This document shows positions 2,183-21,636 of a stretch of DNA of 64,000 nucleotides, one piece after another. Location: assembly GCF_010993735.1 (NCBI RefSeq), contig NZ_WQNI01000005.1, positions 2,501 through 66,500 of the forward strand. The letters are read 5' to 3'. Below the pieces are notes generated by a model. The model saw only the letters and a program-made list of their open reading frames with translations, was not told the DNA's origin and made no database searches. Origin of the DNA: Chelativorans alearensis. GTDB lineage: Bacteria; Pseudomonadota; Alphaproteobacteria; Rhizobiales; Rhizobiaceae. Numbering within the stretch: the first letter of the stretch is position 1; every line of letters begins with the position of its first letter. Made by a program: the position numbers and the translations under genes.

Positions 2183-2900
<718 letters not shown>

Positions 2901-2916
2901 GGGAGACCGAACACCA

Positions 2917-3798: not shown

Positions 3799-3800
3799 GA

Positions 3801-4835: not shown

Positions 4836-4899
4836 AGCATTTTGTAGCCAAGTGGGAACACTTGGCGCCCGCACAAATGCGGCAAACAAAGGTACGCCA

Positions 4900-5673
4900 A
4901 TGGCCGAGTTCATCCTCTACAACGCCCCGCAATCGACCTGCAGCCAGCGCGTGCGCTTCGTGCTCAACGCCAAGGGCCTCCCCTTCGAGGAGATCAGGCT
5001 CGACCTCTTCGCCGGCGACCAGCTAAAGCCCGACTATCTGGCGATCAATCCCAACGGCGTCGTCCCAGCGCTGGTGCATGACGGCCGCCCGGTCACCGAT
5101 TCCGCTGTCATCATGGAATATCTGGACGAGCTCTATCCCGAGCCCGCCCCCTTCCGCCCCTCCTCCCTCTACGGCATCGCCCGCATGCGCTCCCTGATGC
5201 GCTATATCGACGAGGTGCCGACCCCGGCGATCCGCGTCCCCTCCTACAACCTCGCCTTCCTGCCGCACTTTAAGGCCATGAGCGAAGAGGAGTTCCTGGC
5301 GCTCGCCGAATCGAAGCCCCTGCGCAAGGAGTTCCTGCTCGCCATGGGCCGCACCGGCTTTCCGGAAAAGGAGATGACCGCCGCCCTCGACCGCCTCGCC
5401 CGCGCGGTCCAGCGCATGGACGAAACCATCGCCGCCTCCGGCGGTCCCTTCCTGATGGGCGAACCCCTCACCCTCCCCGACATCGCCGTCATGCCGGTGA
5501 TCGTCCGCATGGACGACATCGACCTCAACACGATGTGGCAGGACCGCCCCTCGATCCAGCGCTGGCTCGACGCGATCCGCGCCCACCCGGCCTTCCGCCC
5601 CACCTTCTACCATGGCGCGCTTCTGACGGAGAAATACCCGCATCTGGCGAAGCTCAAGAAGGAGAGGGCTTAG
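4900..5673 (+). CDS. glutathione S-transferase family protein
   Basis: A 257-aa protein with the two-domain GST layout. Residues 1-80 form a thioredoxin-like domain with an N-terminal STCSQRVR segment in the glutathione-contact position, the cis-proline context NPNGVVPAL, and DSAVIMEYL. An all-helical domain follows (about 95-240), including the LTLPDIAVMP helix. The gene starts 64 bp after the LivM-type permease, so it may be co-transcribed with the importer. That would suggest a role in processing or detoxifying the imported compound (inference). Substrate and true GST activity are not predictable, since many members are dehalogenases, isomerases or lyases. The ATG at 4900 has a modest AAAGG upstream. 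Confidence 0.85.
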   Translation: MAEFILYNAPQSTCSQRVRFVLNAKGLPFEEIRLDLFAGDQLKPDYLAINPNGVVPALVHDGRPVTDSAVIMEYLDELYPEPAPFRPSSLYGIARMRSLMRYIDEVPTPAIRVPSYNLAFLPHFKAMSEEEFLALAESKPLRKEFLLAMGRTGFPEKEMTAALDRLARAVQRMDETIAASGGPFLMGEPLTLPDIAVMPVIVRMDDIDLNTMWQDRPSIQRWLDAIRAHPAFRPTFYHGALLTEKYPHLAKLKKERA

Positions 5674-7363: not shown

Positions 7364-8692
7364 TCATATTTCCTGGGACCAGTCGCGGGTTTCGATGATT
7401 GCGCGCAAGCGCCCGAGGAAGGCTGCCGAATAGGCGCCGTCGAAGGCACGGTGGTCGAAGGATTGCGCCAGGATGCCGATCAGGCCGACGCCGATGCGGT
7501 CGCCGTCCTCGTCCGATACGACCACCGGCTTCTTCTTCACGCCGTCGGTGGAAAGGATCGCCACCTGCGGCGCGTTGATGATCGGCGCCGTGAACAGCGT
7601 GCCGAACGTGCCGGAATTGGAGAGCGAATAGGTGGCCCCGAAAAGGTCGTCGGCGGTCAGCCTCCCTGCCCGCGCCCGCGCCACCGCCTCGTTGATCGCC
7701 CGGCCAAGACCCACCAGCGTCAAGTCGTCGGCGCCCCTGACGACCGGCACCACAAGTCCGTCATGGTCGAGATCGACCGCGATGCCGAGATGAACGCGCC
7801 GGGCGACCAGCAGGCGGTCGCCGTCGAGCCGCGCATTCACCTGAGGATAGTCGCGGATGGCAAGGCAGGTCGCACGCGCGATGAAGGGCAGATAGGAGAG
7901 CCGAAAGCCCCAGCGCTCCGCGTTCGCCTCATTGGCCCTGCCGCGCACCCGGTCGAGCCGCGTGAAATCCGCCTCGACCGCCTGCACCACATGCGGAACG
8001 GCACGCCAGGCATCCGCCAGATGCTCCGCCGAGCGCTTGCGGATACGGTTGAGCGGGACGACATCGATATCCGGGCCGGTCTCGGCTTGCCCCGGCTCAG
8101 GCTTCGGCTCCCGTGTCTCGACTGGCCTTGCCGGCACGGGCACGCGCGCCGCCTCCACATCCGCCTTGACGACGCGGCGCCTGCCCTGCCTTGCCGCCTC
8201 CTCGGCCAGCATCACGGCATCGAGCCCGGCCTCGGCGATCAGCCGGCGGGCGAGCGGCGTTATCTTCACCCCGTTCGCGGCCTCGGCCTTGCCGTAATTG
8301 CGCTCCGGCGTGCGCACCTCGAAGAAGGGATCGGGCCCGCTATGCCCGTTCATCCTTGCCGCCGGCTCCGATGCCGGGGCGGGCGCCTCGGCAGGCTTGG
8401 TCTCCGCCGCCCGCGGGTCTGCCGTGGCGGCGGTCGCGTCCCCCTTGCCCGCCGGCTCTTTTTCGCCGGCGATGACCGCCACCACGGCGCCCACGGGCGC
8501 TGTCGCGCCCGCACCGACATGGATCTTCTCAAGAACACCGGCGCCCACGGCCTGCACCTCCATCGACACCTTGTCGGTCTCGATCTCGAACAGCACATCG
8601 CCTTCGCAGACCACATCGCCCTCGGCCTTGAACCAGGTGCTGATGGTGCCCTCGCTCACGGTCTCGCCGAGTTGCGGCATGACGACGTCCAT
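7364..8692 (-). CDS. dihydrolipoamide acyltransferase (E2) of a 2-oxoacid dehydrogenase complex
   Basis: E2 core subunit, 442 aa. It has one lipoyl domain with the lipoyl-lysine in EIETDKVSMEV (K41) and a peripheral-subunit-binding domain (KITPLARRLIAEAGLD, about 140-180). The C-terminal catalytic acyltransferase domain ends with QSFDHRAFDGAYSA, containing the active-site DHRxxDG. The ATG at 8692 has GAGG seven bases upstream; a GTG directly before it is the alternative. It is encoded 9 bp after the aldehyde dehydrogenase and downstream of E1 alpha and beta. No E3 (dihydrolipoyl dehydrogenase) is in the operon, so a housekeeping E3 is presumably shared. Acyl specificity (pyruvate, acetoin, branched-chain) is not clear. 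Confidence 0.92.
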   Translation of the reverse strand: MDVVMPQLGETVSEGTISTWFKAEGDVVCEGDVLFEIETDKVSMEVQAVGAGVLEKIHVGAGATAPVGAVVAVIAGEKEPAGKGDATAATADPRAAETKPAEAPAPASEPAARMNGHSGPDPFFEVRTPERNYGKAEAANGVKITPLARRLIAEAGLDAVMLAEEAARQGRRRVVKADVEAARVPVPARPVETREPKPEPGQAETGPDIDVVPLNRIRKRSAEHLADAWRAVPHVVQAVEADFTRLDRVRGRANEANAERWGFRLSYLPFIARATCLAIRDYPQVNARLDGDRLLVARRVHLGIAVDLDHDGLVVPVVRGADDLTLVGLGRAINEAVARARAGRLTADDLFGATYSLSNSGTFGTLFTAPIINAPQVAILSTDGVKKKPVVVSDEDGDRIGVGLIGILAQSFDHRAFDGAYSAAFLGRLRAIIETRDWSQEI

Positions 8693-8701
8693 CACTTCAC
8701 C

Positions 8702-10150
8702 TCACCATTCCGCGGAGACATATTGCGTCTCCAGGAATTCCATCAGCCCCTCGTGCCCGCCCTCGCGTCCGAGGCCGGACTGCTTGACACCGCCGAAGGG
8801 CGCGGCCGCATCGGAGACGAGGCCGCGATTAAGCCCGATCATCCCGAATTCGAGCCGTTCGGCGAGGCCGAGCCCGCGCTTCTGGTCGCGCGTATAGATG
8901 TAGGCGACGAGGCCGTATTCGGTGTCGTTGGCCTTACGCACCACCTCATCCTCGTCGGAAAAACGCTGGAGGGCGGCCACCGGACCGAAGATCTCGTCGC
9001 ACAAGAGCTTCGCCGTATCGGGAACGTCGACAAGCACCGTCGGCGGATAGAAGAAGCCCCTGCCCTCGTGCCGCCTGCCTCCGCAGAGCGCGCGGGCACC
9101 CCTGGCGACCGCGTCCTCCACGAAACCGGCCACCTTGTCGCGCGTATCGGCATTGACCAGCGCGCCCACCTCAGCGCCTTCCAGCCCGTGGCCCATCCTC
9201 ATGGCGCCCATGCGTGCGGCAAGCTTCTCGGCGAATTCATCGTGCACGCTGTCATGCACGTAGAAGCGGTTCGCCGCCGTGCAGGCCTCGCCCATATTGC
9301 GCATCTTGGCGACGAGCGCCCCCTCAACCGCCGCGTCGATATCCCCATCGGCGCAGACGATGAAGGGCGCGTTGCCCCCCAGCTCCATCGCCGGCTTGAC
9401 GATATTGTCGGCAGCGCTCTTCAAAAGCGTGCGGCCGACCGCCGTCGAACCGGTGAACGAGACCACCCGCACCCGCGGGTCGTGCAGCATGGCATCGGCC
9501 ACGGCGCCCGAAGCGCGCGAGGGAAGCGCGTTGACGACACCCGCCGGCACCCCCGCCTCCTCCAGCACCTCCATCAGCGCCAGCATGGTGAGCGGCGTTT
9601 CCGAGGCCGGCTTGATGACGACGGTGCATCCCGCCGCCAGCGCCGGCCCGATCTTCCGCGTGCCCATGGCAGCCGGGAAGTTCCACGGCGTGATGAGAAG
9701 CGCCACGCCCGCCGGCTTGTGATGCGCCAGGATGCGCGCGCCGGAGGCCGGCGCATGCATCACCTGACCGATGTTGCGCACCGCTTCTTCCGCGTACCAG
9801 CGGAAGAACTCCGCCGCATAGGCCATCTCGCCCAGGGAATCGGCGAGCGACTTGCCGTTCTCGAGCGTCATCAGCCGGGCGAAACGCCCCTTCTCGCGGG
9901 TCAGTATGTCGAAGGCCCGGCGCAGGATTTCCGCACGCTCGCGCGGCTTCCTCGCCGCCCATCCGGCAAAGGCCGCACTGGCCGCCTCGACCGCCGCGAT
10001 CGCGTCCTCCACCGTGCCGTTGGCGACATCGGCAATCTTTTCTTCCCGTGCGGGATCGTAGACCGGAAAGGTGCCCCCGTCGGAAGCCTCGCGCCATTGG
10101 CCGCCGATGTAGAGCCCGCTCGCGAGGCTGGAGGGGATTTCATGCTTCAT
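8702..10150 (-). CDS. NAD(P)-dependent succinate-semialdehyde dehydrogenase family protein
   Basis: Aldehyde dehydrogenase superfamily member, 482 aa, closest in pattern to GabD-type succinate-semialdehyde dehydrogenases. It shows ITPWNFPAAMGTRKIGPAL, the catalytic glutamate in MELGGNAPFIVC and the nucleophilic cysteine in GEACTAANRFYVH. The C-terminal segment EIFGPVAALQRF...SGLGREGGHEG is also typical. It lies between E1 beta and E2, an unusual position for an aldehyde dehydrogenase in a 2-oxoacid dehydrogenase operon. It probably converts a semialdehyde made by another enzyme of the pathway to a carboxylate or acyl product (inference). Confidence 0.9.
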   Translation of the reverse strand: MKHEIPSSLASGLYIGGQWREASDGGTFPVYDPAREEKIADVANGTVEDAIAAVEAASAAFAGWAARKPRERAEILRRAFDILTREKGRFARLMTLENGKSLADSLGEMAYAAEFFRWYAEEAVRNIGQVMHAPASGARILAHHKPAGVALLITPWNFPAAMGTRKIGPALAAGCTVVIKPASETPLTMLALMEVLEEAGVPAGVVNALPSRASGAVADAMLHDPRVRVVSFTGSTAVGRTLLKSAADNIVKPAMELGGNAPFIVCADGDIDAAVEGALVAKMRNMGEACTAANRFYVHDSVHDEFAEKLAARMGAMRMGHGLEGAEVGALVNADTRDKVAGFVEDAVARGARALCGGRRHEGRGFFYPPTVLVDVPDTAKLLCDEIFGPVAALQRFSDEDEVVRKANDTEYGLVAYIYTRDQKRGLGLAERLEFGMIGLNRGLVSDAAAPFGGVKQSGLGREGGHEGLMEFLETQYVSAEW

Positions 10151-10168: not shown

Positions 10169-11146
10169 TCACGCCATTGCCCGGCGCACGCGCTCGGCGA
10201 TGCGCTCGGGCGTCGGCAGGACGATGTCTTCCAGATTGTCGGCCGCCGGCAGCGGGATATGCGGCGTCGTGATGCGCACCACCGGGCCGTCGAGATCGTA
10301 GAACGCCTCGTCGGCCACGATGGAGGCGATCTCCGCCCCCCACCCGCACAGACGCGGGTTCTCCTCGACGGTGAAGAGCCGCCCCGTCTTCGCCACCGAA
10401 GAAAGAATGGTCCGTGTGTCGAGCGGCACGAGCGAGCGCACGTCGATCACCTCGGCATCGATGCCATGCTCGGCCTTCAGCCTTTCGGCAGCCTCAAGCG
10501 CGCGCGGCACCATCAGCGCCAGCGCCAGGATGGTGGCATTGCTGCCCGCACGCACCACCTTCGCCGTGCCGAGCCGGTCGAGGATCTCCCCGTCCGGCAC
10601 CTCCCCCTTCGAGCCGTAGAGCGACTTGTGCTCGAAGAAGATCACCGGATCGGGATCGCGCACCGCCGCCGCCAGAAGCCCGATCACGTCCACTGGCGAA
10701 GAAGGCGCGACCACCTTCAGCCCCGGGATCATCATCGCCCAGTTCTCGACGGACTGGGAGTGCTGCGCGCCGAAGCGCGAGCCTGCGCCATTGCCGGTCC
10801 GCACCACCAGCGGACACTGGAGCTGGCCATTCGACATGTAGCGGGACTTCGGGAACTCGTTGGCGATATAGTCGAAGCACACGGCAAGGAAGTCGGAGAA
10901 CATGATCTCCGCAATCGGCCGCAGCCCCGTCATCGCCGCCCCCATGGCCGCGCCCAGGATCGCCTGCTCGGAGATCGGCGTATCGCGCACGCGTTTCGGC
11001 CCGAACTGCTCGTAAAGCCCCACCGTCGCCTTGAACACCCCGCCGGCCTTGGCGACGTCCTCGCCCAGGAAGACGACCCGTTCGTCCCGCTCCAGCTCCT
11101 GCGCGATGCCGCGCGCCACCGCTTCTCGATAGGTCAGTTCCGCCAT
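10169..11146 (-). CDS. 2-oxoacid dehydrogenase E1 component, beta subunit
   Basis: Transketolase-like pyrimidine-binding and C-terminal domains in 325 aa, as in PdhB/AcoB/BkdB. The glutamate that activates thiamine diphosphate is in DTPISEQAILG, and FSDFLAVCFDYIANEFPK is the usual subunit-contact helix. The C-terminal half carries VIDVRSLVPLDTRTI and VEENPRLCGWGAEI. It overlaps the E1 alpha gene by 13 bp, so the heterotetramer subunits are made together. Together with E1 alpha and the downstream E2 it should oxidatively decarboxylate a 2-oxoacid or cleave an acetoin-like compound. Confidence 0.93.
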   Translation of the reverse strand: MAELTYREAVARGIAQELERDERVVFLGEDVAKAGGVFKATVGLYEQFGPKRVRDTPISEQAILGAAMGAAMTGLRPIAEIMFSDFLAVCFDYIANEFPKSRYMSNGQLQCPLVVRTGNGAGSRFGAQHSQSVENWAMMIPGLKVVAPSSPVDVIGLLAAAVRDPDPVIFFEHKSLYGSKGEVPDGEILDRLGTAKVVRAGSNATILALALMVPRALEAAERLKAEHGIDAEVIDVRSLVPLDTRTILSSVAKTGRLFTVEENPRLCGWGAEIASIVADEAFYDLDGPVVRITTPHIPLPAADNLEDIVLPTPERIAERVRRAMA

Positions 11147-12159
11147 GCCCAGCCCCCGTCGGCATAAACGTCGGTCGCAAGAATCTCATCCGGCGGCGGC
11201 GGTGCGGCCTTGCAGGCCTCCGTCGCGGCGTCCACCTTCGCCTTGCTCTCCCGCTCGATGGCGGCGATCTCTTTTTCGGAAAAGCCGAACTCGGAAAGCC
11301 GCGCCCGGTAGACTTTCACCGGATCCCGCTCCAGCCATTTCTCCAGCTCCCCTTCCGGCCGATATTTGCCGGGGTCGGCGCGCGAATGGCCTGAGTGGCG
11401 GTAGGTCTTGCACTCGATCAGCGACGGCCCCTCGCCGGCCCGTGCCCTGGCAAAGGCGGCCTCAGCCGCGCGATAGACCGCGTCCGCGTCGTTGCCGTCG
11501 ACCAGGATGCTTTCAAGCCCGTAGGCGGAGGCGCGGTCGGCGGCCGGATTCTCCACCGCCGTCACCTCGCCGATGGGCGTGTATTCCATGTAGAGGTTGT
11601 TCTCGCAGCAAAAGACCACCGGCAGCTTCCAGACGGCGGCGAAGTTCAGCGCCTCGTGAAAGGCACCGATATTGGTCGTCCCATCACCGAAGAAGCAGAC
11701 CGACACATCGTCATGGCCGAGATACTGCGCCCGCCACGCCGCTCCACAGGCAATCGGCAGATGCGCGCCGATGATGGCGTAGGAGCCCATCACGCCGTGG
11801 TCGACGGAGGTCAGGTGCATCGACCCGCCCTTGCCGCGCATCAGCCCGTTGTCGCGCTGCATGAGCTCGCCCAGCACCGCCTCCATGTCGACGCCACGCG
11901 CCAGTGTGTGCGCATGTCCGCGATAGGTGCAGAACGACTTGTCCCCTTCCTTCATGGCCACCGCGAACCCCGCCGCAATCGCCTCCTGGCCGAGCGACAG
12001 GTGGCTCGTCCCCTTGACGAGGTTCTGCAGGAACAGGTCGTAGGCCCGCTTCTCGAAATCGCGGATCTCCACCTGGCGCCGGTAAAGATCGAGCCGCGTC
12101 TCGGGCGCGATATCGTCGTTGACGCGGGCGGCCGCGCCTGGCTTCTGGCGCACATTCAT
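11134..12159 (-). CDS. 2-oxoacid dehydrogenase E1 component, alpha subunit
   Basis: Thiamine-diphosphate-binding E1 alpha subunit, 341 aa. The TPP/Mg motif reads GDGTTNIGAFHEALNFAA and ends near CENN. The loop that in regulated enzymes carries phosphorylation sites reads YRHSGHSRADPGKYRP. The N-terminal part (LDLYRRQVEIRDFEKRAYDLF, then HLSLGQEAIAAGF) is typical. It is 39 bp downstream of the M24-family gene and overlaps E1 beta by 13 bp. The pattern fits both pyruvate dehydrogenase-like and acetoin dehydrogenase-like E1 alpha; context favours a dedicated catabolic complex. Confidence 0.93.
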   Translation of the reverse strand: MNVRQKPGAAARVNDDIAPETRLDLYRRQVEIRDFEKRAYDLFLQNLVKGTSHLSLGQEAIAAGFAVAMKEGDKSFCTYRGHAHTLARGVDMEAVLGELMQRDNGLMRGKGGSMHLTSVDHGVMGSYAIIGAHLPIACGAAWRAQYLGHDDVSVCFFGDGTTNIGAFHEALNFAAVWKLPVVFCCENNLYMEYTPIGEVTAVENPAADRASAYGLESILVDGNDADAVYRAAEAAFARARAGEGPSLIECKTYRHSGHSRADPGKYRPEGELEKWLERDPVKVYRARLSEFGFSEKEIAAIERESKAKVDAATEACKAAPPPPDEILATDVYADGGWAWRN

Positions 12160-12198: not shown

Positions 12199-13515
12199 TC
12201 AGTAGCGGTTGGCGATGGGCAGTTCCTCGGCGGGGAAGCGGGAGATCACCTCGCACCCCGTATCGGTCACCACCACCTCCTCCTCGATGCGCGCCGCCGA
12301 ATAGCCGTCGGTGGCCGGGCAGTAGGTCTCCAGCGCGAAGACCATGCCGGTCTTGATCTCCATCGGGTTGTCCAGCGAGACGAGGCGGGAGATGATGGGC
12401 CGCTCGTGCAGCGCCAGCCCAAGCCCGTGGCCGAACTGCAATCCGAATGCAGCCATCTCGGAGGGGAAGCCGAATTCCTCCGCCTTCGGCCAGACATTCG
12501 CCACGGTGTCGGTGGAAACACCCGGCCTGATGAGCGCGATCGCCGCGTCCAGCCACTCCCGGCACTTCACATAGGCATCCCGCTGCACCGGCGTCGCACG
12601 GCCGACATTGAAGGTGCGGTAGTAGCAGGTGCGGTAGCCCTGGTACGACTGCAGGATGTCGAAGAAGGCCTGGTCGCCGGGGCGGATCAGCCGGTCGGTG
12701 AAATTGTGCGGATGCGGATTGCAGCGCTCGCCGGCGATCGCGTTGATCGCCTCAACGTCGTCCGAGCCCATCTCGTAGAGCATCTTGTTGGCCGCAGCCA
12801 CGATGTCGTTCTCGCGCACGCCCGGCTTCAGCTCCTCCCAGATCATATGATAGACGCCGTCCACCATCGCGGCGGCTTGGTTCAAGAGCACGATCTCATC
12901 GATGTTCTTGATCTCGCGCGCGTCCAGCATGACCTGCTGGCCGTCGACGACGTCGAGCCCCGCTCTCTGCAGCTCGAAGAGCATCGCCGTCTCAGTGATA
13001 TCCACACCGACGGGCAAATCCGCCACGCCGGCCTGGCGCAGGAGGTCCGCGATCTCCTCCGCATGTGCCTTCATCAGCCCCACCGCGGGCGGCACCGTGC
13101 CGCGCATGCCCAGCATGCCGGCGCGGAAGTGGCTTTCAGGCATCCAGTCGCAATAGAGCCGGTGATGCACCGCGGCCGAGCCGAAATCCCACAGCACCGG
13201 TTCATTGTCGCCGGCGAGCAGAGCGAAGCGGCACAGCTTGTCGCGCTCCCATTCGCCGATCTTGGTGGAGGTCACGTAGCGGATATTGTTGACGTCGAAG
13301 AGCAGCAGCGCGCCGCACTTTGAATTCTTCAACGCCTGACGCGCCCTGGCCAGCCGATAGGCATGCATGCGGCGGTGGTCGACGCGCACCTCGAAGTCGA
13401 CGCTCATATGGCCGGGAGCGGGGATCGCCCGGTCCCAGCGCCAGTTGGGCGCCAGCGCCTCTCTCAGCGCAGCTCCCACATCGATCTCACGCGGTTGCAG
13501 GATATGTTCGTTCAT
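12199..13515 (-). CDS. M24 (creatinase/aminopeptidase P/DddP-like) family protein with an incomplete metal site
   Basis: First gene of the dehydrogenase operon, 438 aa. It has an N-terminal creatinase-like domain (about 50-200, with LLFDVNNIRYVTS) and a C-terminal pita-bread domain (about 210-425). Of the five M24 metal ligands I can place Asp286 (FFDIL), His363 (FGHGLGLALH), Glu396 (ALETYC) and Glu411/412 (RIEEEVVV). The second aspartate, expected about 11 residues after Asp286, falls in RTCYYRTF, which has none. The enzyme may therefore bind one metal or work without metal, as creatinase does. The length and layout recall DddP-type DMSP lyases as well as Xaa-Pro peptidases, so the reaction is open. 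Confidence 0.8.
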   Translation of the reverse strand: MNEHILQPREIDVGAALREALAPNWRWDRAIPAPGHMSVDFEVRVDHRRMHAYRLARARQALKNSKCGALLLFDVNNIRYVTSTKIGEWERDKLCRFALLAGDNEPVLWDFGSAAVHHRLYCDWMPESHFRAGMLGMRGTVPPAVGLMKAHAEEIADLLRQAGVADLPVGVDITETAMLFELQRAGLDVVDGQQVMLDAREIKNIDEIVLLNQAAAMVDGVYHMIWEELKPGVRENDIVAAANKMLYEMGSDDVEAINAIAGERCNPHPHNFTDRLIRPGDQAFFDILQSYQGYRTCYYRTFNVGRATPVQRDAYVKCREWLDAAIALIRPGVSTDTVANVWPKAEEFGFPSEMAAFGLQFGHGLGLALHERPIISRLVSLDNPMEIKTGMVFALETYCPATDGYSAARIEEEVVVTDTGCEVISRFPAEELPIANRY

Positions 13516-13606: not shown

Positions 13607-13620
13607 TGCAATCGTTTGCA
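13607..13620. promoter_or_regulatory. LacI-family operator, site 1 (upstream of the M24-E1-E2 operon)
   Basis: TGCAATCGTTTGCA is a near-perfect palindrome with the central CG typical of LacI-family operators. It lies 92 bp upstream of the M24 gene start, in the divergent region shared with the LacI-type regulator gene. The identical 14-mer recurs at 20809-20822 before the TRAP operon. Binding is inferred. Confidence 0.7.
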
Positions 13621-13747
13621 CATAACCATCATCGATGCACGGTGTCAATCGCAAGATCGGACATGCGGCTCACGTTCGCCTTTCCCGCCGTCGAGAGGCC
13701 CGCTCTTCCGGATTGGGCCCAACCGACGCACCCCCGCTCCGTGCATT

Positions 13748-13761
13748 TGAAAACGTTTGCA
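13748..13761. promoter_or_regulatory. LacI-family operator variant, site 2 (upstream of the regulator gene)
   Basis: TGAAAACGTTTGCA matches site 1 in its right half (CGTTTGCA) and is a weaker palindrome around ACGT. It lies 54 bp before the LacI-type regulator start, a position suited to autoregulation. Binding is inferred from similarity and location. Confidence 0.55.
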
Positions 13762-13814
13762 CGAAACGGTATTCTGGCCGGAGTTCGTTTGATTCCGGAG
13801 CCGCACCAGCCACC

Positions 13815-14906
13815 ATGCAGAAGACGTCCATCAAGAAACGCGTGACGCTCAAGGACGTTGCCAATGCGGTAGGGGTCCATGTCTCGACGGTTTCCCGCGC
13901 GCTCGATCCGCGCACGCGGCATCTCATCACGCCGGAGGTGGCCGAGCAGATATTGAAAGCGAGCGAGCGGCTCGACTACCGCCAGAACGCGGCCGCCTAT
14001 TCGCTCAAGACCAATCGCACGCGCACCATCGGCGTCGTCGTGCCCGACATCACCAACCCCGTGTTCCCGCCGATCATCCGCGGTGTGGAGGATGCGCTGG
14101 CAAGCCGCGGCTACGTCGCCATCCTCGGCAACACCGATGGCGACATGCGCCGCGAGACCGGCCTTGTCGAAACCTTCCGCTCGCGCGGCGTCGACGGGCT
14201 GATCCTGGCGAGCGTCGAGCGCGAGGACGCCGCCGTCTCCAAGCTGGCCGCCGAGGGGTTGCCGGTCATCACCGTCAACCGGCGGGTGGACGACAGCACC
14301 GTGGCCTCCGTCGTCAACGACGAGGCGGAAGGCATCCGCCGGGTGCTCACCCATCTCGTCTCGCTCGGCCACCGGCGGGTGGCCAACATCGCGGGCCCCC
14401 AGTCCCTGTCGACGGGCGCCGCGCGTTATGCCGGCTTCGAAAAGTACCGCGGGCCGATGGGGCTTGCCGACGATCGCGGCCTCGTCGTTTTCGCCAACGC
14501 CTTCAACGAGGCGGAGGGTGAGCGCTGCGTGGAGGAGCTTTTGGCGAGCGGCGCCGAGTTCACGGCCATTGTCTGCTCGAACGACCGGCTGGCGGTCGGC
14601 GCCATCGCCGCGCTTTCCCGGCACGGCCGGCGCTGCCCGGAGGATGTGTCGGTGACCGGCTACAACGACATGCCGATGGTGGAGCGGATGCAGCCACCCC
14701 TCACCACCATCCGCATCCAGTCCAACAAGGTCGGCTTCGAGGCAGGACAGCTTCTGGTGCAGATGATCGAGCGCCCGCCCGGCGAATACGTGGCGGAACA
14801 TATCGTGCTCCCCATCGAACTGATCGTCCGCGGCTCGACCCGCGCCATCCACGCCCCGAACGGGCAAGACGGGGACACGGCTAAACCGCGCGTCCGCCCC
14901 CTCTAG
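13815..14906 (+). CDS. LacI family transcriptional regulator (catabolic locus)
   Basis: Repressor-type regulator, 363 aa. The N-terminal helix-turn-helix reads VTLKDVANAVGVHVSTVSRAL (about residues 9-29, broken here as VTLKDVANAVGVHVSTVS then RAL), followed by the hinge and a periplasmic-binding-protein-like sensor domain (IGVVVPDITNPVFPPIIRG onward). The ATG at 13815 was chosen because it places the HTH at the N-terminus; the frame is open upstream but overlaps the operator region. It is divergent from the M24-E1-E2 operon, with two operator-like palindromes between them. I infer that it controls that operon, itself, and the TRAP-amidohydrolase operon. Its stop codon lies inside the left terminus of a 122-bp inverted-repeat element. 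Confidence 0.92.
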   Translation: MQKTSIKKRVTLKDVANAVGVHVSTVSRALDPRTRHLITPEVAEQILKASERLDYRQNAAAYSLKTNRTRTIGVVVPDITNPVFPPIIRGVEDALASRGYVAILGNTDGDMRRETGLVETFRSRGVDGLILASVEREDAAVSKLAAEGLPVITVNRRVDDSTVASVVNDEAEGIRRVLTHLVSLGHRRVANIAGPQSLSTGAARYAGFEKYRGPMGLADDRGLVVFANAFNEAEGERCVEELLASGAEFTAIVCSNDRLAVGAIAALSRHGRRCPEDVSVTGYNDMPMVERMQPPLTTIRIQSNKVGFEAGQLLVQMIERPPGEYVAEHIVLPIELIVRGSTRAIHAPNGQDGDTAKPRVRPL

Positions 14907-15024
14907 TGGTGCGATCCTGACAGATGGTACCCATCTGTCAGGGCAAATCGCCCCACCAGATCAATAGCTTGTGGGCTGACTTATCCAAACAGATGGGTAC
15001 CATCTGTTTGGGTCAGACCACTAG
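14903..15024. repeat. 122-bp MITE-like inverted-repeat element
   Basis: The ends are CTAGTGGT (14903-14910) and ACCACTAG (15017-15024). Inside are two hairpins: one spans 14918-14940 (arms TGACAGATG/CATCTGTCA) and one spans 14985-15011 (arms CCAAACAGATGG/CCATCTGTTTGG, loop GTA). Their 17-base cores are exact reverse complements of each other, so the whole element is one large inverted repeat containing smaller ones. No coding capacity. The TAG stop of the LacI-type gene is within the left terminus. Confidence 0.75.
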
Positions 15025-15026
15025 AA

Positions 15027-15127
15027 GCAATTCCAGGAAAAGTGGGAACCGGTTTTCCGTCCGGAATTGCGGCAAGATAAAAGGTTAGATCGTTTCGCCG
15101 TTTCCATGAAATGGTGAAATGATCTAG
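15027..15127. repeat. dispersed Rhizobiales-type intergenic repeat (GCAATTCC...GGAATTGC family)
   Basis: GCAATTCC (15027-15034) pairs with GGAATTGC (15063-15070), with GGAAAA/TTTTCC inside. A second hairpin follows, with the imperfect arms GATCGTTTCGCCGTTTC and GAAATGGTGAAATGATC, ending in CTAG at 15127. I recognise the pattern as an abundant short intergenic repeat of Rhizobiales. It immediately follows the 122-bp element and ends 21 bp before the hydrolase gene. Confidence 0.65.
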
Positions 15128-15148
15128 CTCGGCAACAGGAACCCTCCC

Positions 15149-16207
15149 ATGGCCGCTACGGAAAACCGCCTCATGGAAGTCGCCGGCCACTGGCTGCCGC
15201 GCATGGAGGTGGCCGGCATCCCCTCGACCACGGCGAAGGCAGTGATGGAGGCTGCCGGCACCTGGGAGAATTGGTGCCGCGCCTGGACCGCTGAAGGCGA
15301 ACGCCACCGGGCCGCTGGAGAAGAAGCCCTGTCTCTCGGCCGTCGCGTGACAGCGGGCGAGGCCTTTGCCCGCGCGAGCTTGTTCTATCACTTCGCACAA
15401 TTCATGTTCTTCGACGACATCGCCCAGAAGAACGCGGCAGCCCGCGCAAAGTGCGAAGCCTATGCGCGGGCATTGCCGATGCTCGATCCGCCGGGCGAAA
15501 TTCTGTCGATCCCTTTCGAAGGCGGTGTCATCCGGGCGGCGCTACGCAAGCCGGTGCGCGGCACCGCACCCTACCCTCTCGCCATTCTCATCCCCGGCTC
15601 CGACTCCACGAAGGAGGAGTTTCCGGCGCTCGAAGCGCATTTCCTGAAACGCGGCCTTGCGACGCTGTCGGTCGACGGGCCGGGTCAGGGCGAAGGCCGC
15701 AGCCTCGGGCCGCTCAGGGCGGATATCGGCCCCGCGCTCGCCGCCGTTGTCGAACACGTTCATGGCGTGCCCGGAATTGCCGACGGCATCGCGCTGGTGG
15801 GCATGGCCTTCGGCGGCCACCTGGCGCTGCGAGCTGCCGGTGCCGTACCCGGCCTGAAGGCCGTGGTCTCCATCAACGGCTTTCACGATCTGGCGGCCAT
15901 GTGGCCAGGTTTCCCGCCGGTCTACCGTGACAACATGACCTACGCACTCGGCGCCGCCGACATGGAAGAGGCGGCGGAGCGGGCGCGCGCCTTCACCCTT
16001 GCGGGCACCCTTCCAGCCTCCTGCCCGATGCTCGTCATCCACGGCGGCAAGGACCGCATCTTTCCACCGGGAGAAGCCGAGCGCTGCGCTGCCTGGGCGG
16101 GCGGTGCGGAGCTCGTGATTTACCCGGATGGCAATCACGTCTGCAACAATATTGCTTGGGCCTATCGCCCTATGGCCGCCGACTTTGCTGCCGAGAAACT
16201 GACCTGA
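15149..16207 (+). CDS. alpha/beta hydrolase-fold protein lacking the nucleophilic serine
   Basis: A 352-aa protein resembling the DHPON-hydrolase/FrsA type: a helical N-terminal lid (about 1-115), then an alpha/beta hydrolase core (about 120-350). The core has ILIPGSDSTKEEF, where the oxyanion loop is expected, and SVDGPGQGEGRS. The nucleophile elbow, normally GxSxG, reads VGMAFGGH, placing Ala220 where serine belongs. The acid (Asp302 in GGKDRIFP) and the base (His330 in DGNHVCNN) are retained. It may use water-mediated or lyase chemistry, or be non-catalytic. It lies between the two arms of the catabolic locus, convergent with the amidohydrolase gene. Confidence 0.8.
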   Translation: MAATENRLMEVAGHWLPRMEVAGIPSTTAKAVMEAAGTWENWCRAWTAEGERHRAAGEEALSLGRRVTAGEAFARASLFYHFAQFMFFDDIAQKNAAARAKCEAYARALPMLDPPGEILSIPFEGGVIRAALRKPVRGTAPYPLAILIPGSDSTKEEFPALEAHFLKRGLATLSVDGPGQGEGRSLGPLRADIGPALAAVVEHVHGVPGIADGIALVGMAFGGHLALRAAGAVPGLKAVVSINGFHDLAAMWPGFPPVYRDNMTYALGAADMEEAAERARAFTLAGTLPASCPMLVIHGGKDRIFPPGEAERCAAWAGGAELVIYPDGNHVCNNIAWAYRPMAADFAAEKLT

Positions 16208-16240
16208 CCAGCCGCCTCTTGCGCTCCATTACGCCCCTCT

Positions 16241-17596
16241 TCAGCTTTGGGCACCGCGGAATTCGGTGAGAATTCGCGCACCGGAAGCGGCAAGCTCGTC
16301 CGCGCGGCGGTCAAGGTCGGCCGCAAGCAGCCGCCCTGCCCGCTTGCGGACAACGCCGTCCACCATGACCGTGTCGACATTGGCCGGTCCGGCCTGCAAC
16401 ACGATGGAGGCGACCGGGTCGTTGACTGGATATAGCCCATGGGCGCGCGTATCGAGCAGCGCGATGTCGGCCGCCTTACCCGGTACGAGCGAGCCGACGC
16501 GGTGGTCCATGCCGGCCATGCGGGCGCCATCGATCGTCGCCCAGCGCAGCGCCTCGGCACTGGAGACGGTGATTGCCTCCGGCCCGGCCCCCATGGCCGC
16601 GATAGCATCGAGGTTGTCGAGCAGGCGCTGGCATTGCAGTGTCATGCGCGCCACGGTGAACATGTCGCTCGACATGGCCGACTCGATGTCGGAGCCGATC
16701 GAGACCGGCGCGCCAAGCGCCCGCAGCCGCCCCGTCAGCGGCCGGCCGAAGCCCATCTGCATCTCCACCTCCGCCGTCACCGTGAAGGAGACGCCGTTGG
16801 AGACGAGGAGGGAAAGCTGTTCGTCGCTGAGGATGTTGGCGTGAACGACATTGATATGGCGCCCCAGCAGCCCCTCCGCCGCCAGCCGCTCGAAACCGTC
16901 CGGGACCATGAAGCCGCCGCTCACATGCATGCTGGCGACAAGGCCGAGTTCGCGGGCGAGCCGGAAGTCTGCGAGGCAGACCTCGTGCACCGACATGCCG
17001 GGACCGAGGATGGCAAGCCCGAGGGTGACCAGCCCATCGTCGCTTGAAAGCCGCTCACGGCGCACCCGCTCGACCTCCGCGCGCGGCAGCGGGATCTCGC
17101 TGAAATGTCTCTGGCCGGTCTTGGGATCGGGCTTGGGCGAGCCGTGCAGGAAAAGTGCGCGGATGCCGCTATTCCGAAGCGCATCGATGGCGGCATCCGT
17201 GTGCTCGGGTGTGGGATTGTTGTGGCACCAGTCGACAAGCGTCGTGGTGCCCGCGTTGAGCTGGGCATGGGCGCCCATGAGATTGGCGATGTAGATGTCC
17301 TGCGGCCGGAAATGCGTGGCCAGCCCCGCATGCATGGCCCGCAGATATTCCTTGATCGTCCAGTCGGCGGCGATCCCGCGCAATCCCGTCTGCCAGGTGT
17401 GCAAGTGCGCGTTGACGAAGCCCGGCATGACGATCATGCCGGCGGCATCGATCACCTCGCCCACCTCTTCCACCTCCAGCCTTGGTGCGAGGGCGGCAAT
17501 GCGGCCCCGCTCCACCAGAAGGTCTCCGGGCGCCAGTATCCTTCCCTTCTCGTCCATGGTGACGATTGTGCCGCCCTTGATGAGAATGCGGGACAT
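16241..17596 (-). CDS. amidohydrolase family protein (ATZ/TRZ, cytosine deaminase-like)
   Basis: Metal-dependent hydrolase or deaminase of 451 aa. A small beta-sandwich (residues 1-60, 370-420) frames a TIM barrel. The HxH metal site is in VMPGFVNAHLHTWQTG; further ligand candidates are His in SMHVSGG, His in VVHANILSD and Asp in SIGSDIESAMSSDMF. The pattern belongs to the SsnA/chlorohydrolase/guanine deaminase branch, which removes amino, chloro or similar groups from heterocycles or nucleosides. It is the last gene of the TRAP operon, 14 bp after the permease, so it probably acts on the imported compound. The substrate is not identifiable. Confidence 0.87.
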   Translation of the reverse strand: MSRILIKGGTIVTMDEKGRILAPGDLLVERGRIAALAPRLEVEEVGEVIDAAGMIVMPGFVNAHLHTWQTGLRGIAADWTIKEYLRAMHAGLATHFRPQDIYIANLMGAHAQLNAGTTTLVDWCHNNPTPEHTDAAIDALRNSGIRALFLHGSPKPDPKTGQRHFSEIPLPRAEVERVRRERLSSDDGLVTLGLAILGPGMSVHEVCLADFRLARELGLVASMHVSGGFMVPDGFERLAAEGLLGRHINVVHANILSDEQLSLLVSNGVSFTVTAEVEMQMGFGRPLTGRLRALGAPVSIGSDIESAMSSDMFTVARMTLQCQRLLDNLDAIAAMGAGPEAITVSSAEALRWATIDGARMAGMDHRVGSLVPGKAADIALLDTRAHGLYPVNDPVASIVLQAGPANVDTVMVDGVVRKRAGRLLAADLDRRADELAASGARILTEFRGAQS

Positions 17597-17610
17597 GGAT
17601 GGGCCTCCGG

Positions 17611-19563
17611 CTAAAGAAGGAAGAGCGCGATGGCGGGGAAGGCCATCAGGATGAGCGTGACCGCCACCATGACGATCACGAAGGGGAAGGCGCCGGTGAA
17701 GATATCATGAAGGGACGCGAAGCCGGGCGGCAGCGTGCCCTTCACCACGAAGACGGAAAGCCCGAAGGGCGGCGTCAGAAGCCCGATCTCCACGCCGATC
17801 ACCGTGACCACGCCGAACCAGACCGGATCGCCGCCGAAGGCCGCCACCACCGGCAGCACGATGGGCAGGATGATCAGCATGATGGAGACCGAATCCAGGA
17901 TCATGCCGAGCAGGATCAGGATCACGAGATAGACGACGAGGAAGCCCATGAAGCCGAGATTAAGGGCGGCAAGGGCGGCGGTCATCTGCATGGGGATGGT
18001 GGAAAGTGTCAGCATGCGGCCATAGAGATTGGCGGCGATGATCAGGAACAGGATGCCGGCGGCGATGTAGCCCGTCTCCAGCACGACCCGGCCGATCTCC
18101 TTCAGGCCGAGCTTGCGCCGGGCAAAGCCGACGATGAAGGCGCCGAGGGCACCTACGGCCCCCGCCTCCGTCGCGGTAAAAACGCCGGCATAGATCCCGC
18201 CCATCACGACAGCGACGATGGCCACCACGGGCGCCAGCCGCCGCGCCATCTCCGCCGCCGGCATGCCCTCCGCCGCAACCGGCTTGGGCGTTCCGACAAA
18301 GCGGGGAAACCAGGTAGCCAGCGCCACGTTGAGCGCCGCGAAGGCCGAGGCGAGAAGAAGCCCCGGCACGATCGCCGCGATGAACAGCTTGCCGACCGAG
18401 ACCTCCGCCAGGAGCCCGTAGATGATGAGAAGCAGGCTCGGCGGGATGAGCATCCCCAAGACCGAGCTTCCCGTCACCACGCCGACCGCGAAACGCGGCG
18501 TATATCCGCTCTCGATCATCGGCGGCACGGCGATGCGGCTGAAGACCGCCGCGGACGCGATCGAGCTGCCGGTGATCGAGGCAAAGATGGCGTTGGCGGC
18601 GACGGTGGCCATGCCGAGCCCGCCGCGCACCCGCCGCAGGAGGTGGACGGCGACCTGGAAGGCGTCGCGGCCGGCATCGGCCCGGTCGAGCACCAGCCCC
18701 ATCAGCACGAAGAGCGGCACCACCCCGAACTCGTAGGAACGGATCGCGCCGCCGGCGGCAATCCCGAGCGCATTCTGGGCGATGGCCGGGTTGTGCCGCA
18801 CCAGCCACAGGCCGAGAAAGGAAAGCGCCAGAAGCGCAAAGGCGATCGGCATGCCGAGCGTGACCGCCACCAGAAGGCCGGCGAGCGAGACGATGCCGAT
18901 CCAGACCGGCGACAGGGTCAGGGTGAAATTCAGGATGAGAAAGGCAGCGACGGCACCGACGAAAATCGCGATCGGCAGGAGATCGCGCGACAACGCCGGC
19001 TCCCCCGGCGCCGGCCGCCGCAGGGCGCCCAAAAGGCCAGAACCGGACAGGAGAGCCCGCCGGCCGGCCTCGACGAATGCCACGGCACAGCCGGCCACCA
19101 CGGCGAACTTGAAGGGCCAGACCGTGATTTGATAGGCGCCGACGGCGCCGCTGAACTCACCCGAATGATAGGACTTCACGAGATAGCGCCACAGCCAGGA
19201 GAGCGCTGCGGCAAGGATCGCGGCCGCCGCGGCGAAGAAGACCAGCTCCATCGTGCGCGCCAGATGAGGCCGCTTTTCCTGCCAGGCGCCGATGAGGAAA
19301 TCCGCCCGCACCAGCCGCCCGCCGCCGATGGTGCTGCCAAGCTGGAGGAACACGCACGCCACGATGGTGAGCGCCACGATATCGCTCACACCGTTGATCG
19401 GCCTTAACAAGAAAAAACGCATGCCGATGTCGGCCACGATCAGAAGCATCAGCCCGACCAGGGCCGAGGAGGCGACGGCGGAAAGCACGAGCGGGACGGC
19501 CTGCCAGGTGCGCCCGAAAACAGAAGGGGCGGCGGCTCGTTCTGTCGCTGTGTTTTCGGCCAT
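17611..19563 (-). CDS. TRAP transporter permease, fused DctQ-DctM type
   Basis: A 650-aa inner-membrane protein that joins the small (DctQ, about residues 20-190, four hydrophobic segments) and large (DctM, about 215-650, twelve or so segments) TRAP subunits. The large part carries the family patterns GMPIAFALLALSFLGLW, ASITGSSIASAAVFSRIAVP and GSSVLGMLIPPSLLLIIYG, plus EIGLLTPPFGLSVFVVKG near the end. The ATG at 19563 gives MAENTATERA; a GTG 15 codons upstream is possible. With the binding protein 78 bp upstream it forms a sodium- or proton-driven high-affinity importer for a carboxylate-type compound. Confidence 0.92.
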   Translation of the reverse strand: MAENTATERAAAPSVFGRTWQAVPLVLSAVASSALVGLMLLIVADIGMRFFLLRPINGVSDIVALTIVACVFLQLGSTIGGGRLVRADFLIGAWQEKRPHLARTMELVFFAAAAAILAAALSWLWRYLVKSYHSGEFSGAVGAYQITVWPFKFAVVAGCAVAFVEAGRRALLSGSGLLGALRRPAPGEPALSRDLLPIAIFVGAVAAFLILNFTLTLSPVWIGIVSLAGLLVAVTLGMPIAFALLALSFLGLWLVRHNPAIAQNALGIAAGGAIRSYEFGVVPLFVLMGLVLDRADAGRDAFQVAVHLLRRVRGGLGMATVAANAIFASITGSSIASAAVFSRIAVPPMIESGYTPRFAVGVVTGSSVLGMLIPPSLLLIIYGLLAEVSVGKLFIAAIVPGLLLASAFAALNVALATWFPRFVGTPKPVAAEGMPAAEMARRLAPVVAIVAVVMGGIYAGVFTATEAGAVGALGAFIVGFARRKLGLKEIGRVVLETGYIAAGILFLIIAANLYGRMLTLSTIPMQMTAALAALNLGFMGFLVVYLVILILLGMILDSVSIMLIILPIVLPVVAAFGGDPVWFGVVTVIGVEIGLLTPPFGLSVFVVKGTLPPGFASLHDIFTGAFPFVIVMVAVTLILMAFPAIALFLL

Positions 19564-19641
19564 GCGCTTCGGCTCGCTGTAGGCGGGGTTCGCGATCCGA
19601 CCGGGCACGGCCGGATCACGCGAGTGCTTTCGGCGGCAGTT

Positions 19642-20715
19642 CTAGATATTGCCGTCCCAGTCGCGCAGCGGCTTGCCGCCTCTGGCGCGGACGGTAGCCA
19701 TGAACTCCTTCATGATCTCGCGCGCCGGGATGCCGTCGGCCTCACCGGCCTCGACCCAGTTGCGGCCGAGATCGGGCATCATGCTCACCCACTCCAGCCG
19801 CTGCTCCTGCGGCATCTTGGCAATCGTGGCGCCTTCCTCCTTCATCGCCTGGATGGCACTCGCCTGGCGCTCCTCGATCAGCCGGGCGTTCTCGGTGGAA
19901 TACTCCATGCCGAGTTCGGTCAGCACCTCCTGAACATCCTGTGGCAGCGTGTCCCAGGTGGCTCGGCTCACGCCGAAGCCTCCGAAGGTGAGCGGGCCCG
20001 TATCCACCAGCGTCACGAACGGCGCAACCTCGTGGATCTTGAGTGGATAGGCGCCGGTGGCGATCAGGATGGAACCGTCGCCGACGCCGGTCTGGAGCTG
20101 CGAATACTGCGCCGGCAGGCCCGTCGAGACGAGGGTGGCGCCGGTCGGCTCGATCCAGGGCGCACAGACCGGAACGCCGAGGATCTTCAGGCCCTTGAGA
20201 TCGGAAAGCTGCTCGATCGGCTTCTTGGTGAAGAGGTGATAGCCGTCCGAAACGCACGCCCCGAGAAAGACGATGCCGTTGGCCTCCCACTCGGCCTTCA
20301 TGGCCGCATTCTTGGCATTGAGCTCGTTCATCACGTCCACCGCCTGCTGCACGCCGCTGGTGGCAAATGGCGTCGAGTACATGATGTTCTGCAGCGGCAG
20401 GGCGGATGGTTCCCACAAAGCCCCGATCCAGCCCATGTCGGTCAATTGCTGGCTAACGGCTTCCAGCGTGTCCTCGAAGCCGTAGAGCGAGCCGCCGAAG
20501 GCCTCGGTCCAGTTGATCCGATGGCTGCTCCCCCGCTCCTCCAGCATCCGGTTCGAGCGTTCCACGATCACAGTCTTGAGCGGCGCCACCCAGGGGATGG
20601 CCAGCGGATGGCTGGAGGAGATCGTCAGATTGATGACCTCCTGCCCGAAAGCCGCGCGTGCCGGCAGTGCGGCGGCTGCGGCGGTAATCAGAATGGTGCG
20701 TCTGGAAATCAGCAT
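19642..20715 (-). CDS. TRAP transporter substrate-binding protein (DctP family)
   Basis: Periplasmic receptor, 357 aa. The N-terminus MLISRRTILITAAAAALPARAAFG-Q is a signal peptide with a twin-arginine-like SRRTI start; it is written here only as its key parts, SRR and the AFG-Q cleavage region. The mature domain shows the DctP pattern, including GGSLYGFEDTLEAVSQQLTD and the DLKGLKILGVPVCAP segment with the conserved binding region. It is the first gene of the operon TRAP receptor, TRAP permease, amidohydrolase. A LacI-type operator lies 94 bp upstream. Its ligand is probably a carboxylate or related small molecule. Confidence 0.92.
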   Translation of the reverse strand: MLISRRTILITAAAAALPARAAFGQEVINLTISSSHPLAIPWVAPLKTVIVERSNRMLEERGSSHRINWTEAFGGSLYGFEDTLEAVSQQLTDMGWIGALWEPSALPLQNIMYSTPFATSGVQQAVDVMNELNAKNAAMKAEWEANGIVFLGACVSDGYHLFTKKPIEQLSDLKGLKILGVPVCAPWIEPTGATLVSTGLPAQYSQLQTGVGDGSILIATGAYPLKIHEVAPFVTLVDTGPLTFGGFGVSRATWDTLPQDVQEVLTELGMEYSTENARLIEERQASAIQAMKEEGATIAKMPQEQRLEWVSMMPDLGRNWVEAGEADGIPAREIMKEFMATVRARGGKPLRDWDGNI

Positions 20716-20784
20716 CGGTCTCCTCCCTGGCTGCTGCTGCTATGCAACGAGCCTCCTCCGATCGAGCAAGCGCTCCCCAAGAAC

Positions 20785-20823
20785 CTTCTACCGCACGAGT
20801 TATTGAAATGCAATCGTTTGCAT
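20785..20823 (-). promoter_or_regulatory. TRAP operon promoter with LacI-family operator (site 3)
   Basis: TGCAATCGTTTGCA at 20809-20822, extended to ATGCAATCGTTTGCAT at 20808-20823, is identical to site 1 at 13607. On the minus strand TTGCAT (20813-20808) could be a -35 element, 17 bp from TAGAAG (20790-20785) as a -10. The operator would then cover the -35, consistent with repression. The operator is well supported, the promoter hexamers only weakly. Confidence 0.65.
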
Positions 20824-20902
20824 TCACTTGCGCAAAGCGCGGCATCGGGATCGACCGTCACGGGGTGGCAGCGGCATCCTCTATTGCATCGCAACATACC
20901 TC

Positions 20903-20944
20903 TTGACTGTACCAACTGGACGGTATATGTACCGTCTGGACGGT
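20903..20944 (+). promoter_or_regulatory. promoter and TetR-type operator of the RND efflux operon
   Basis: TTGACT (20903-20908) and TATGTA (20926-20931), 17 bp apart, form a plausible sigma-70 promoter. Overlapping the -10 are GACGGTA-TATG-TACCGTC (20919-20936) and ACCGTC-TG-GACGGT (20931-20944), two linked palindromes sharing the ACCGTC unit. A TetR-family gene starts about 95 bp downstream, so this is its likely operator and implies autorepression. Confidence 0.65.
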
Positions 20945-21039
20945 TAAGTAAGAACCAGCGCCGAATTGACCTCCCAAGTCTTTTGCATTCCGGGAATGCG
21001 GCACCTGACATTGGCCGCATTCCCGGACGGGCACACGGA

Positions 21040-21636
21040 ATGATGAGTGAAATGATGAGCGAACCGACCACCACGACGACGCGGACAGACAAGCGCACCT
21101 CGAATTCCCGCGAGGAGATCCTGGACGCAGCGCAACGCATCGTGAAGCGCGACGGCGCCGCCCATCTGACGATCGACGGCGTGGCGCGCGAAGCGGGCCT
21201 CAGCAAGGGCGGCGTGCTCTACAATTTCCCCAACAAGGAACGCCTGCTCAAGGGCATGCTCGACCGGATGCTTGAGAACTCGATCGCGCTGATTGAGGCC
21301 TTTCGCGAAGAATTCGCCGATTGCCCCAATCCCACGCTGAGGGCCATCATCAAGACAACGGCGAATAAGGAGTGTCTCGATCCGGCCCTAAACAGAGCCA
21401 TCCTGGCCGTGGCGGCGGAAGACCCCGAAATGATCGCTCCCCTCCAGGCAGAACTTGCGAAGCGTTGGGAACAGGTTCGACAGGAGTGCACGGATCGGGA
21501 CATGGCTGCCCTTTTGTGGGCCGCGGCCGACGGTCTCATGTTCCACGCTCTTCTCGATATCGGCGTCTTCCCGCCGGAAAAGCGGGCCGAACTTCTCGAA
21601 AAACTCGACGAACTGGCTGCAACCACCCTTAAGTAG
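21040..21636 (+). CDS. TetR family transcriptional regulator of the adjacent RND pump
   Basis: A 198-aa repressor with an N-terminal TetR HTH domain (SREEILDAAQRIVKRDGAAHL, shown in part, then TIDGVAREAGLSKGGVLYNF and PNKERLLKGM) and a helical ligand domain. It resembles regulators that use GVLYNFPNKE instead of the commoner ALYYHF. Four ATGs cluster at the start (21040, 21043, 21052, 21055) and none has a clear ribosome binding site; 21040 is taken. The membrane-fusion protein gene follows after 10 bp and the pump after that, so the three form one autoregulated operon. Confidence 0.9.
   Translation: MMSEMMSEPTTTTTRTDKRTSNSREEILDAAQRIVKRDGAAHLTIDGVAREAGLSKGGVLYNFPNKERLLKGMLDRMLENSIALIEAFREEFADCPNPTLRAIIKTTANKECLDPALNRAILAVAAEDPEMIAPLQAELAKRWEQVRQECTDRDMAALLWAAADGLMFHALLDIGVFPPEKRAELLEKLDELAATTLK

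Follow-up and report, generated by a model that had tools for sequence, protein, structure and literature searches.

Two catabolic operons of the alphaproteobacterium Chelativorans alearensis lie on either side of a gene for a LacI-family regulator, and the question raised by this locus is whether all three answer to one operator and, if they do, whether the two operons serve one pathway. The locus is part of a 64,000-nucleotide stretch of contig NZ_WQNI01000005.1 (assembly GCF_010993735.1, positions 2,501 to 66,500), which is referred to here as the window. Operon A begins with the gene for an M24-family hydrolase and encodes the E1 and E2 components of a 2-oxoacid dehydrogenase; operon B begins with the gene for a TRAP solute-binding protein, DctP, and ends with that for an amidohydrolase. 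We consider it highly likely that both belong to the regulon of an autoregulated LacI repressor, with an ordinary LacI mechanism and an unusual gene content. This reading is based on the operator sites, their conservation, their co-occurrence with one LacI subfamily, the gene content of the operons and the presence of Asn instead of Asp in the ligand pocket. The sites and the regulator are as follows.

13607 to 13620, minus strand: operator 1, reading TGCAAACGATTGCA towards M24; it abuts the expected -10 position, and the same site type is found before M24 orthologues.
13748 to 13761, plus strand: operator 2, reading TGAAAACGTTTGCA, before the LacI gene; the same site is present in the regions L030 (Chelativorans xinjiangense) and L031.
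20809 to 20822, minus strand: operator 3, reading TGCAAACGATTGCA towards DctP.
13815 to 14906, plus strand: LacI-family regulator of 363 amino acids, with recognition helix GVHVSTVSRALDP and Asn284 in the motif GYND.

All three sites are non-coding. Operators 1 and 3 are identical 14-mers with the same orientation relative to their own operons, and form an imperfect palindrome with a CG centre (six of seven pairs symmetric); the gaps to the start codons are 91 bp for M24 (13515) and 93 bp for DctP (20715), and operator 2 stands 53 bp before the LacI ATG (13815). The identical palindrome before both operons and the variant before the LacI gene had been picked out in the initial annotation, and both observations hold: in the whole genome (5.70 Mb, 36 contigs) TGCAATCGTTTGCA is matched exactly twice, both times within this locus, and the variant overlaps a predicted -35 box. 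The accompanying argument, that an exact 14-bp match is unlikely by chance, is invalid when taken alone. Exact 14-mer repeats are frequent in the window, where direct pairs number 121, whereas 100 shuffles gave 46 ± 9; repeat pairs with at least six of seven palindromic positions number three, against a shuffle mean of 0.53 and at least one such pair in 42 of the 100 shuffles. A loose scan of the window, allowing up to three mismatches, gave eight matches and hence no excess over chance (mean 4.5; eight reached in 11 of 100 shuffles). Because repeated 14-mers are so common in the window, the exact match is weak evidence by itself, and in view of the shuffle results it counts only jointly with position and conservation, with which the argument holds.

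Conservation was followed before operon A in 397 genomes of the order, among which M24 orthologues (E ≤ 1e-150 or better) occur at 40 places in 39 genomes. A simple codon model and tblastn served to draw gene limits in relatives' genomes. At 11 of the 40 places the 500 bp upstream contain a site with at most one mismatch, and the distribution of such sites follows that of the regulator. The presence of LacI was counted at two thresholds, E ≤ 1e-100 and E ≤ 1e-60, the looser of which still leaves out the paralogues of the own genome (best 7e-45) and assigns this LacI type to 15 of the 39 M24 genomes. At E ≤ 1e-60, sites are present at 11 of 16 M24 places with this LacI and at none of 24 without it (Fisher p = 2e-6); at E ≤ 1e-100 the counts are 8/8 and 3/32 (p = 2e-6), both values being uncorrected for relatedness. 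In one family, genomes of small size (0.9-1.6 Mb) retain M24 and E1 and have neither the site nor this LacI. As the initial annotation would have it, the operator precedes the orthologous operons in Chelativorans salis and C. xinjiangense (LacI identity 97% and 99%, respectively), and it does so in genomes of other families as well. When 30 sites, hand-picked for matching, were aligned with 8-bp flanks, conservation dropped beyond the 14 bp. Exact sites in eight relatives number 27, in seven of the genomes, and the reversed pattern gives none.

Orthologues of DctP (E ≤ 1e-90 or better) are rarer, at 10 places in 9 of the 397 genomes. At six of these places a site is found no more than 1,500 bp from DctP; in one case the distance is 1,076 bp and the site stands before a preceding gene. 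M24 and DctP occur together in five genomes (the own genome, G313, G392, G413 and G500), each of which has sites before the two operons; in G500 and G392 the DctP-side site carries one mismatch. In G413 the identical 14-mer precedes M24, the reductase gene and DctP alike, with the M24 and DctP operons on two different contigs. The site can also be placed before whichever gene leads the operon: on the TRAP side of G313 it precedes an enoyl-CoA hydratase-type gene standing ahead of DctP, and on the M24 side of G392 a reductase gene standing ahead of M24. The reductase-type gene has a separate operator in G413, G500 and G313. Orthologues of a further operon of the window, which encodes an ABC transporter of the HAAT type (60-5673), lie in the clusters of G313, G413, G574 and G515, and two sites precede the orthologous operon in G313 (L058); by this conserved linkage, the HAAT-type operon, whose upstream DNA is masked in the own genome, is probably another member of the regulon. 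Taken together, the sites, the orthologous operons and the co-occurrence with LacI support the earlier proposal of one regulon under this LacI, as far as sequence comparison can.

The genes of the two operons and the promoter elements found near their operators are listed below; the LacI gene is divergent from operon A.

12199 to 13515, minus strand: M24-family hydrolase, first gene of operon A; the nearest NCBIfam model, DddP, is far under its cut-off.
11134 to 12159, minus strand: 2-oxoacid dehydrogenase E1 alpha, operon A.
10169 to 11146, minus strand: 2-oxoacid dehydrogenase E1 beta, operon A.
8702 to 10150, minus strand: aldehyde dehydrogenase, operon A, nearest to the succinate-semialdehyde type.
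7364 to 8695, minus strand: E2 acyltransferase with lipoyl domain, operon A.
6338 to 7306, minus strand: dehydrogenase of the 3-hydroxyisobutyrate / tartronate-semialdehyde reductase type, last gene of operon A here.
19642 to 20715, minus strand: TRAP solute-binding protein DctP, first gene of operon B.
17611 to 19563, minus strand: fused TRAP permease DctQM, operon B.
16241 to 17596, minus strand: amidohydrolase of the PRK08204 subfamily, last gene of operon B.
13747 to 13775, plus strand: predicted LacI promoter, TTGAAA-17-TATTCT, with its -35 box overlapping operator 2 (one found by the scan, shuffle mean 0.2).
13643 to 13648, minus strand: perfect -35-like hexamer TTGACA, identified by eye, upstream of operator 1.

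Operon A had been described as an M24-E1-E2 operon; it does hold those genes, together with the aldehyde dehydrogenase and the reductase. From its TTGACA hexamer, a -10 box and a transcription start would be expected at operator 1. The promoter scanner gave no M24 promoter despite this hexamer (read from 13648 to 13643), and the -10 candidates at a spacing of 17-18 (TTATGT/TATGTG) are weak.

From these arrangements we infer binding, repression, an effector and, less securely than the regulon itself, a single pathway. LacI (13815-14906) would bind the 14-bp CG-centred sequence TGCAANCGNTTGCA, or a form of it with one mismatch, at three places. Without effector, it would repress its own promoter from an operator over the -35 box, the M24-E1-aldehyde dehydrogenase-E2-reductase operon from an operator at the expected -10 and start region, and the DctP-DctQM-amidohydrolase operon. 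Release would be brought about by a small molecule imported via the TRAP transporter and/or the neighbouring HAAT-type ABC transporter, or by an early breakdown product; uptake would then be induced jointly with the hydrolytic steps of the amidohydrolase and M24 and with oxidative decarboxylation and the removal of aldehydes. The substrate would most likely be a non-sugar, either ring-derived (aromatic or N-heterocyclic) or an amide compound. An uncharacterised catabolic locus thus becomes a testable unit, consisting of a regulator, exact operators, two transporters and the enzymes that these may feed.

In several respects this arrangement is like the local LacI regulons described in a published survey, in which more than 75% of LacI sites lie 140 to 30 bp before the start, the centre is CG and 72% of regulators are autoregulated (Ravcheev et al., 2014; PMC4052901). 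The likeness extends to the even, CG-centred palindrome, sites 53-93 bp before the starts, putative autoregulation, and transporter and catabolic genes under local control. Its non-sugar genes set the proposed regulon apart from most of those surveyed.

Several observations weigh against the proposed regulon. Its operator core measures 14 bp vs 16-22 nt for the LacI motifs of the survey (Ravcheev et al., 2014). No sigma-70-like promoter was recognised by the scan upstream of DctP. In the own genome, the consensus TGCAANCGNTTGCA has four exact places and 13 at up to one mismatch vs 4 for the reversed pattern; the ten of these 13 places that are not the three operators are intragenic in four cases and intergenic in six by a simple gene model, and the two remaining exact places precede a LuxR-type and an OsmC-like gene, neither of them a catabolic operon. 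Of the 16 M24 places with this LacI, five (in G392, twice in G335, and in G560 and G673) lack a site in the 500 bp before M24; sites do occur at most 1.5 kb from the LacI genes in G392, G335 and G560, and none does so in G673. One of the eight relatives, G054, has the LacI and no exact site. By our count, homologues of regulon genes adjoin only 15 of the relatives' 27 exact sites; the neighbours of the remaining 12 are different transporters and amidohydrolases, another LacI, or unrelated genes. An occurrence of the motif at many unrelated genes is thus not seen in the own genome (two exact copies, four of the consensus) and is in part seen in the relatives. The operator type is also subfamily-wide, so that in G413 and G500, which have two such LacI proteins each, the operons may answer to different paralogues.

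A perfect TGCAANCGNTTGCA precedes an OsmC-domain gene in two genomes, at L061 (G000:C35:159093-159106) and at L145:5004 (G313), which may be coincidence.

A deletion in C. xinjiangense (L030) has struck one of the two operons: DctP, DctQM and the amidohydrolase except for ~56 codons are gone from this place there, and operon A is intact. The best DctP elsewhere in that genome (G281) is 41% identical. The TRAP transporter is therefore dispensable for retaining operon A, and on account of this deletion the single pathway is less certain than the single regulon. The alternative in which a shared regulator serves two separate substrates, co-regulated through a common signal such as a shared breakdown product and not as one pathway, thus has some claim, and we hold it to be a tentative possibility. 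It draws further on the 34 of 39 M24 genomes that have no such DctP at E ≤ 1e-90, and on G500, in which each operon adjoins its own LacI paralogue. However, DctP of at least 53% identity is found in six genomes, five of which have M24 too (p = 4e-5, uncorrected), and the operator type precedes both operons wherever both are present (5/5). The earlier claim that transporter, amidohydrolase and dehydrogenase belong to one pathway consequently survives in part, favoured by the paired operators and weakened by the loss of the TRAP genes and the rarity of DctP beside M24.

At L030:12285-12470 the same deletion has fused the 3' remnant of the amidohydrolase gene to the intact TRAP operator, which has become an orphan operator.

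The LacI protein could also be an activator or a dual regulator, an improbable reading to which the DctP side lends some room, since no promoter was recognised there and the position of the operator relative to it is uncertain. Against this, the operators over the lacI -35 box and at the expected start region of operon A are in positions typical of repression, and the most economical account of the locus is repression from all three sites. It is quite improbable that the sites are general LacI-type sites, or bound by another LacI-family paralogue, with the neighbouring LacI regulating something else. The own genome does have 20 LacI-family matches including this one, and the consensus resembles known LacI-family operators; but the other 19 proteins are at most 33% identical to this regulator, the nine of them that were aligned (ten being outside the alignment) all have different recognition helices, for which binding by another own paralogue was rejected, the M24 sites follow the presence of this LacI type, and the LacI gene itself has a site. 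Chance, or common ancestry of non-functional DNA, is hardly credible and was rejected: it can point to the abundance of 14-mer pairs and the unremarkable loose scan of the window, but it is contradicted by islands conserved across families amid differing flanks and by reversed-pattern controls (0 exact in eight genomes, 0 in 216 kb of plasmid regions).

The repressor regulon being the preferred reading, the regulator itself deserves closer description. Its LacI domain (PF00356) scores 32.8 bits against a cut-off of 27, and PF00532/PF13377 are over their cut-offs. It shares its domain architecture with RbsR, GntR, CcpA and PurR, which provide its best NCBIfam and PDB matches. It differs from them in that all of its 20 NCBIfam matches are under the cut-offs (RbsR 220 vs 382, GntR 205.5 vs 400) and in having Asn vs mostly Asp in GYxD. 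The Asp of this motif grips the ligand in LacI (D274) and PurR (D275). Asn occupies the position in 37 of 37 aligned relatives, not all of them independent, vs Asp in eight and Asn in none of nine aligned own paralogues; of the five best PDB matches shown, four, including RbsR, also have Asp. The recognition-helix motif ST[VA]SRAL is likewise found in 22/22 relatives and 0/9 own paralogues; among the more distant plasmid relatives, a few depart from it.

Plasmid records matched LacI in 23 cases (12 examined), M24 in 26 (four examined, among them a Streptomyces record reached through its LacI match) and DctP in eight (none examined). Within the 12 LacI regions, the operator type at up to one mismatch occurs in 11, with 27 matches in 216,117 bp vs 0 for the reversed pattern. 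The clusters of Rhizobium, Shinella, Bosea, Skermanella and Cupriavidus have a LacI of the same subfamily (43-53%) and the same operator type. They differ in carrying intradiol/catechol dioxygenase, SDR and BKACE genes with HAAT-type, TRAP or TTT transporters, and in the stretches read these ring-cleavage genes replace M24/E1/E2. In seven of nine annotated regions (the unannotated L172, L178 and L180 being outside this count and inside that of the motif), the 17-21 kb that hold LacI also hold an intradiol/catechol-type dioxygenase, together with SDR, BKACE and cupin genes and transporter genes of the TRAP, TTT or HAAT type, the combination varying. The Rhizobium bangladeshense region, which has no dioxygenase in this count, holds an FAD monooxygenase, BKACE and an amidohydrolase. 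A plasmid of Streptomyces sp. YIM 121038 shares with the present locus LacI (44%), M24 (65%), E1/E2, a succinate-semialdehyde dehydrogenase, a reductase and a binding protein in one cluster; it differs in having a flavin-dependent (LLM) monooxygenase and a flavin reductase, and no operator match at up to one mismatch was found in its 25-kb region.

Neither of the marks of a carbohydrate-sensing LacI group, sugar genes in the regulon and Asp in GYxD, is present, and the regulon genes (TRAP, HAAT-type ABC, M24, amidohydrolase, 2-oxoacid dehydrogenase) are of non-sugar kinds. The effector is therefore likely to be a non-sugar. In the survey, carbohydrates account for 176 of the 182 LacI groups with known pathways, which weighs against this, and the words 'aromatic', 'TRAP' and 'dioxygenase' are absent from its main text (Ravcheev et al., 2014). 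We put forward, at roughly even odds, an undescribed LacI subfamily with an Asp-to-Asn change that senses intermediates of aromatic or N-heterocyclic breakdown and controls interchangeable modules. In this joint proposal the helix is typically GVHxSTxSRALxP, the pocket motif G[YFH]ND and the operator TGCAANCGNTTGCA, the modules are M24/E1/E2, intradiol dioxygenase/BKACE, TRAP, HAAT-type ABC and amidohydrolases, and the members are from Alpha- and Betaproteobacteria, with the 44% relative in Streptomyces. The word undescribed has as its sole basis a literature search, by title and start of abstract, that found nothing on such a regulon or on a link between LacI and ring cleavage. If the proposal is true, the operator could serve to locate unlinked genes of uncharacterised pathways for ring degradation in many bacteria, and the exchange of Asp for Asn would offer a concrete way of testing how sensors of the LacI type passed from sugars to other ligands.

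As regards the substrate, dimethylsulphoniopropionate and ectoine were rejected, M24 being far under the respective NCBIfam cut-offs, and a weak PDB match of M24 is the sole backing of a creatine-like compound. The nearest structures to DctP are 4n6d, 4nap and 4pgn, of which we take the last two to have D-tryptophan and indole pyruvate as ligands (a literature search for this found nothing). On a Paenarthrobacter ureafaciens plasmid (L169), an M24 relative (55%) is accompanied by RidA, a cupin, a flavin reductase and HAAT-type ABC genes in the same order, a neighbourhood that hints at an N-heterocyclic substrate. In plasmids of Phaeobacter and Pacificitalea (L168, L167), operons of M24, E1, E2 and aldehyde dehydrogenase (77-78% in M24) have genes for ThuA and for ABC transporters of the sugar type as neighbours, and no LacI is annotated in these stretches; this setting counts mildly against a strictly ring-derived substrate.

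Two further features of the window adjoin the regulon genes.

60 to 5673, plus strand: HAAT-type ABC transporter operon, with a binding protein at 60 to 1346, two ATPases, two permeases and a GST-like protein.
15149 to 16207, plus strand: FrsA-like alpha/beta hydrolase, after LacI and on the same strand; its best solved-structure match is 2,6-dihydroxypseudooxynicotine hydrolase.

Between LacI and this hydrolase lies a repeat of ~120 bp (14902-15025) resembling a miniature inverted-repeat transposable element, with 58-nt inverted arms that are 78% complementary. It has at least 30 near-full-length places in the genome, including this one, among the 40 of 127 candidates that were scored, and the LacI stop codon falls in its edge. 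The gap between the two genes is ~242 bp here vs ~128 and 56 bp in two Chelativorans relatives. A second palindromic intergenic repeat was recognised by eye at 15030-15126 (AGCAATTCC...GGAATTGC, then GATCGTTTC...GAAATGATC) and is absent from the inverted-arm listing; repeats of this kind are common in rhizobia. Finally, palindromic ACCGTCCAG/ACGGT repeats, also seen by eye, are present at 20900-20945, upstream of a gene of the TetR type (21040-21636) with efflux-like genes after it, these names coming from reading of the sequence and not from a family search; the repeats are likely to be a TetR operator.

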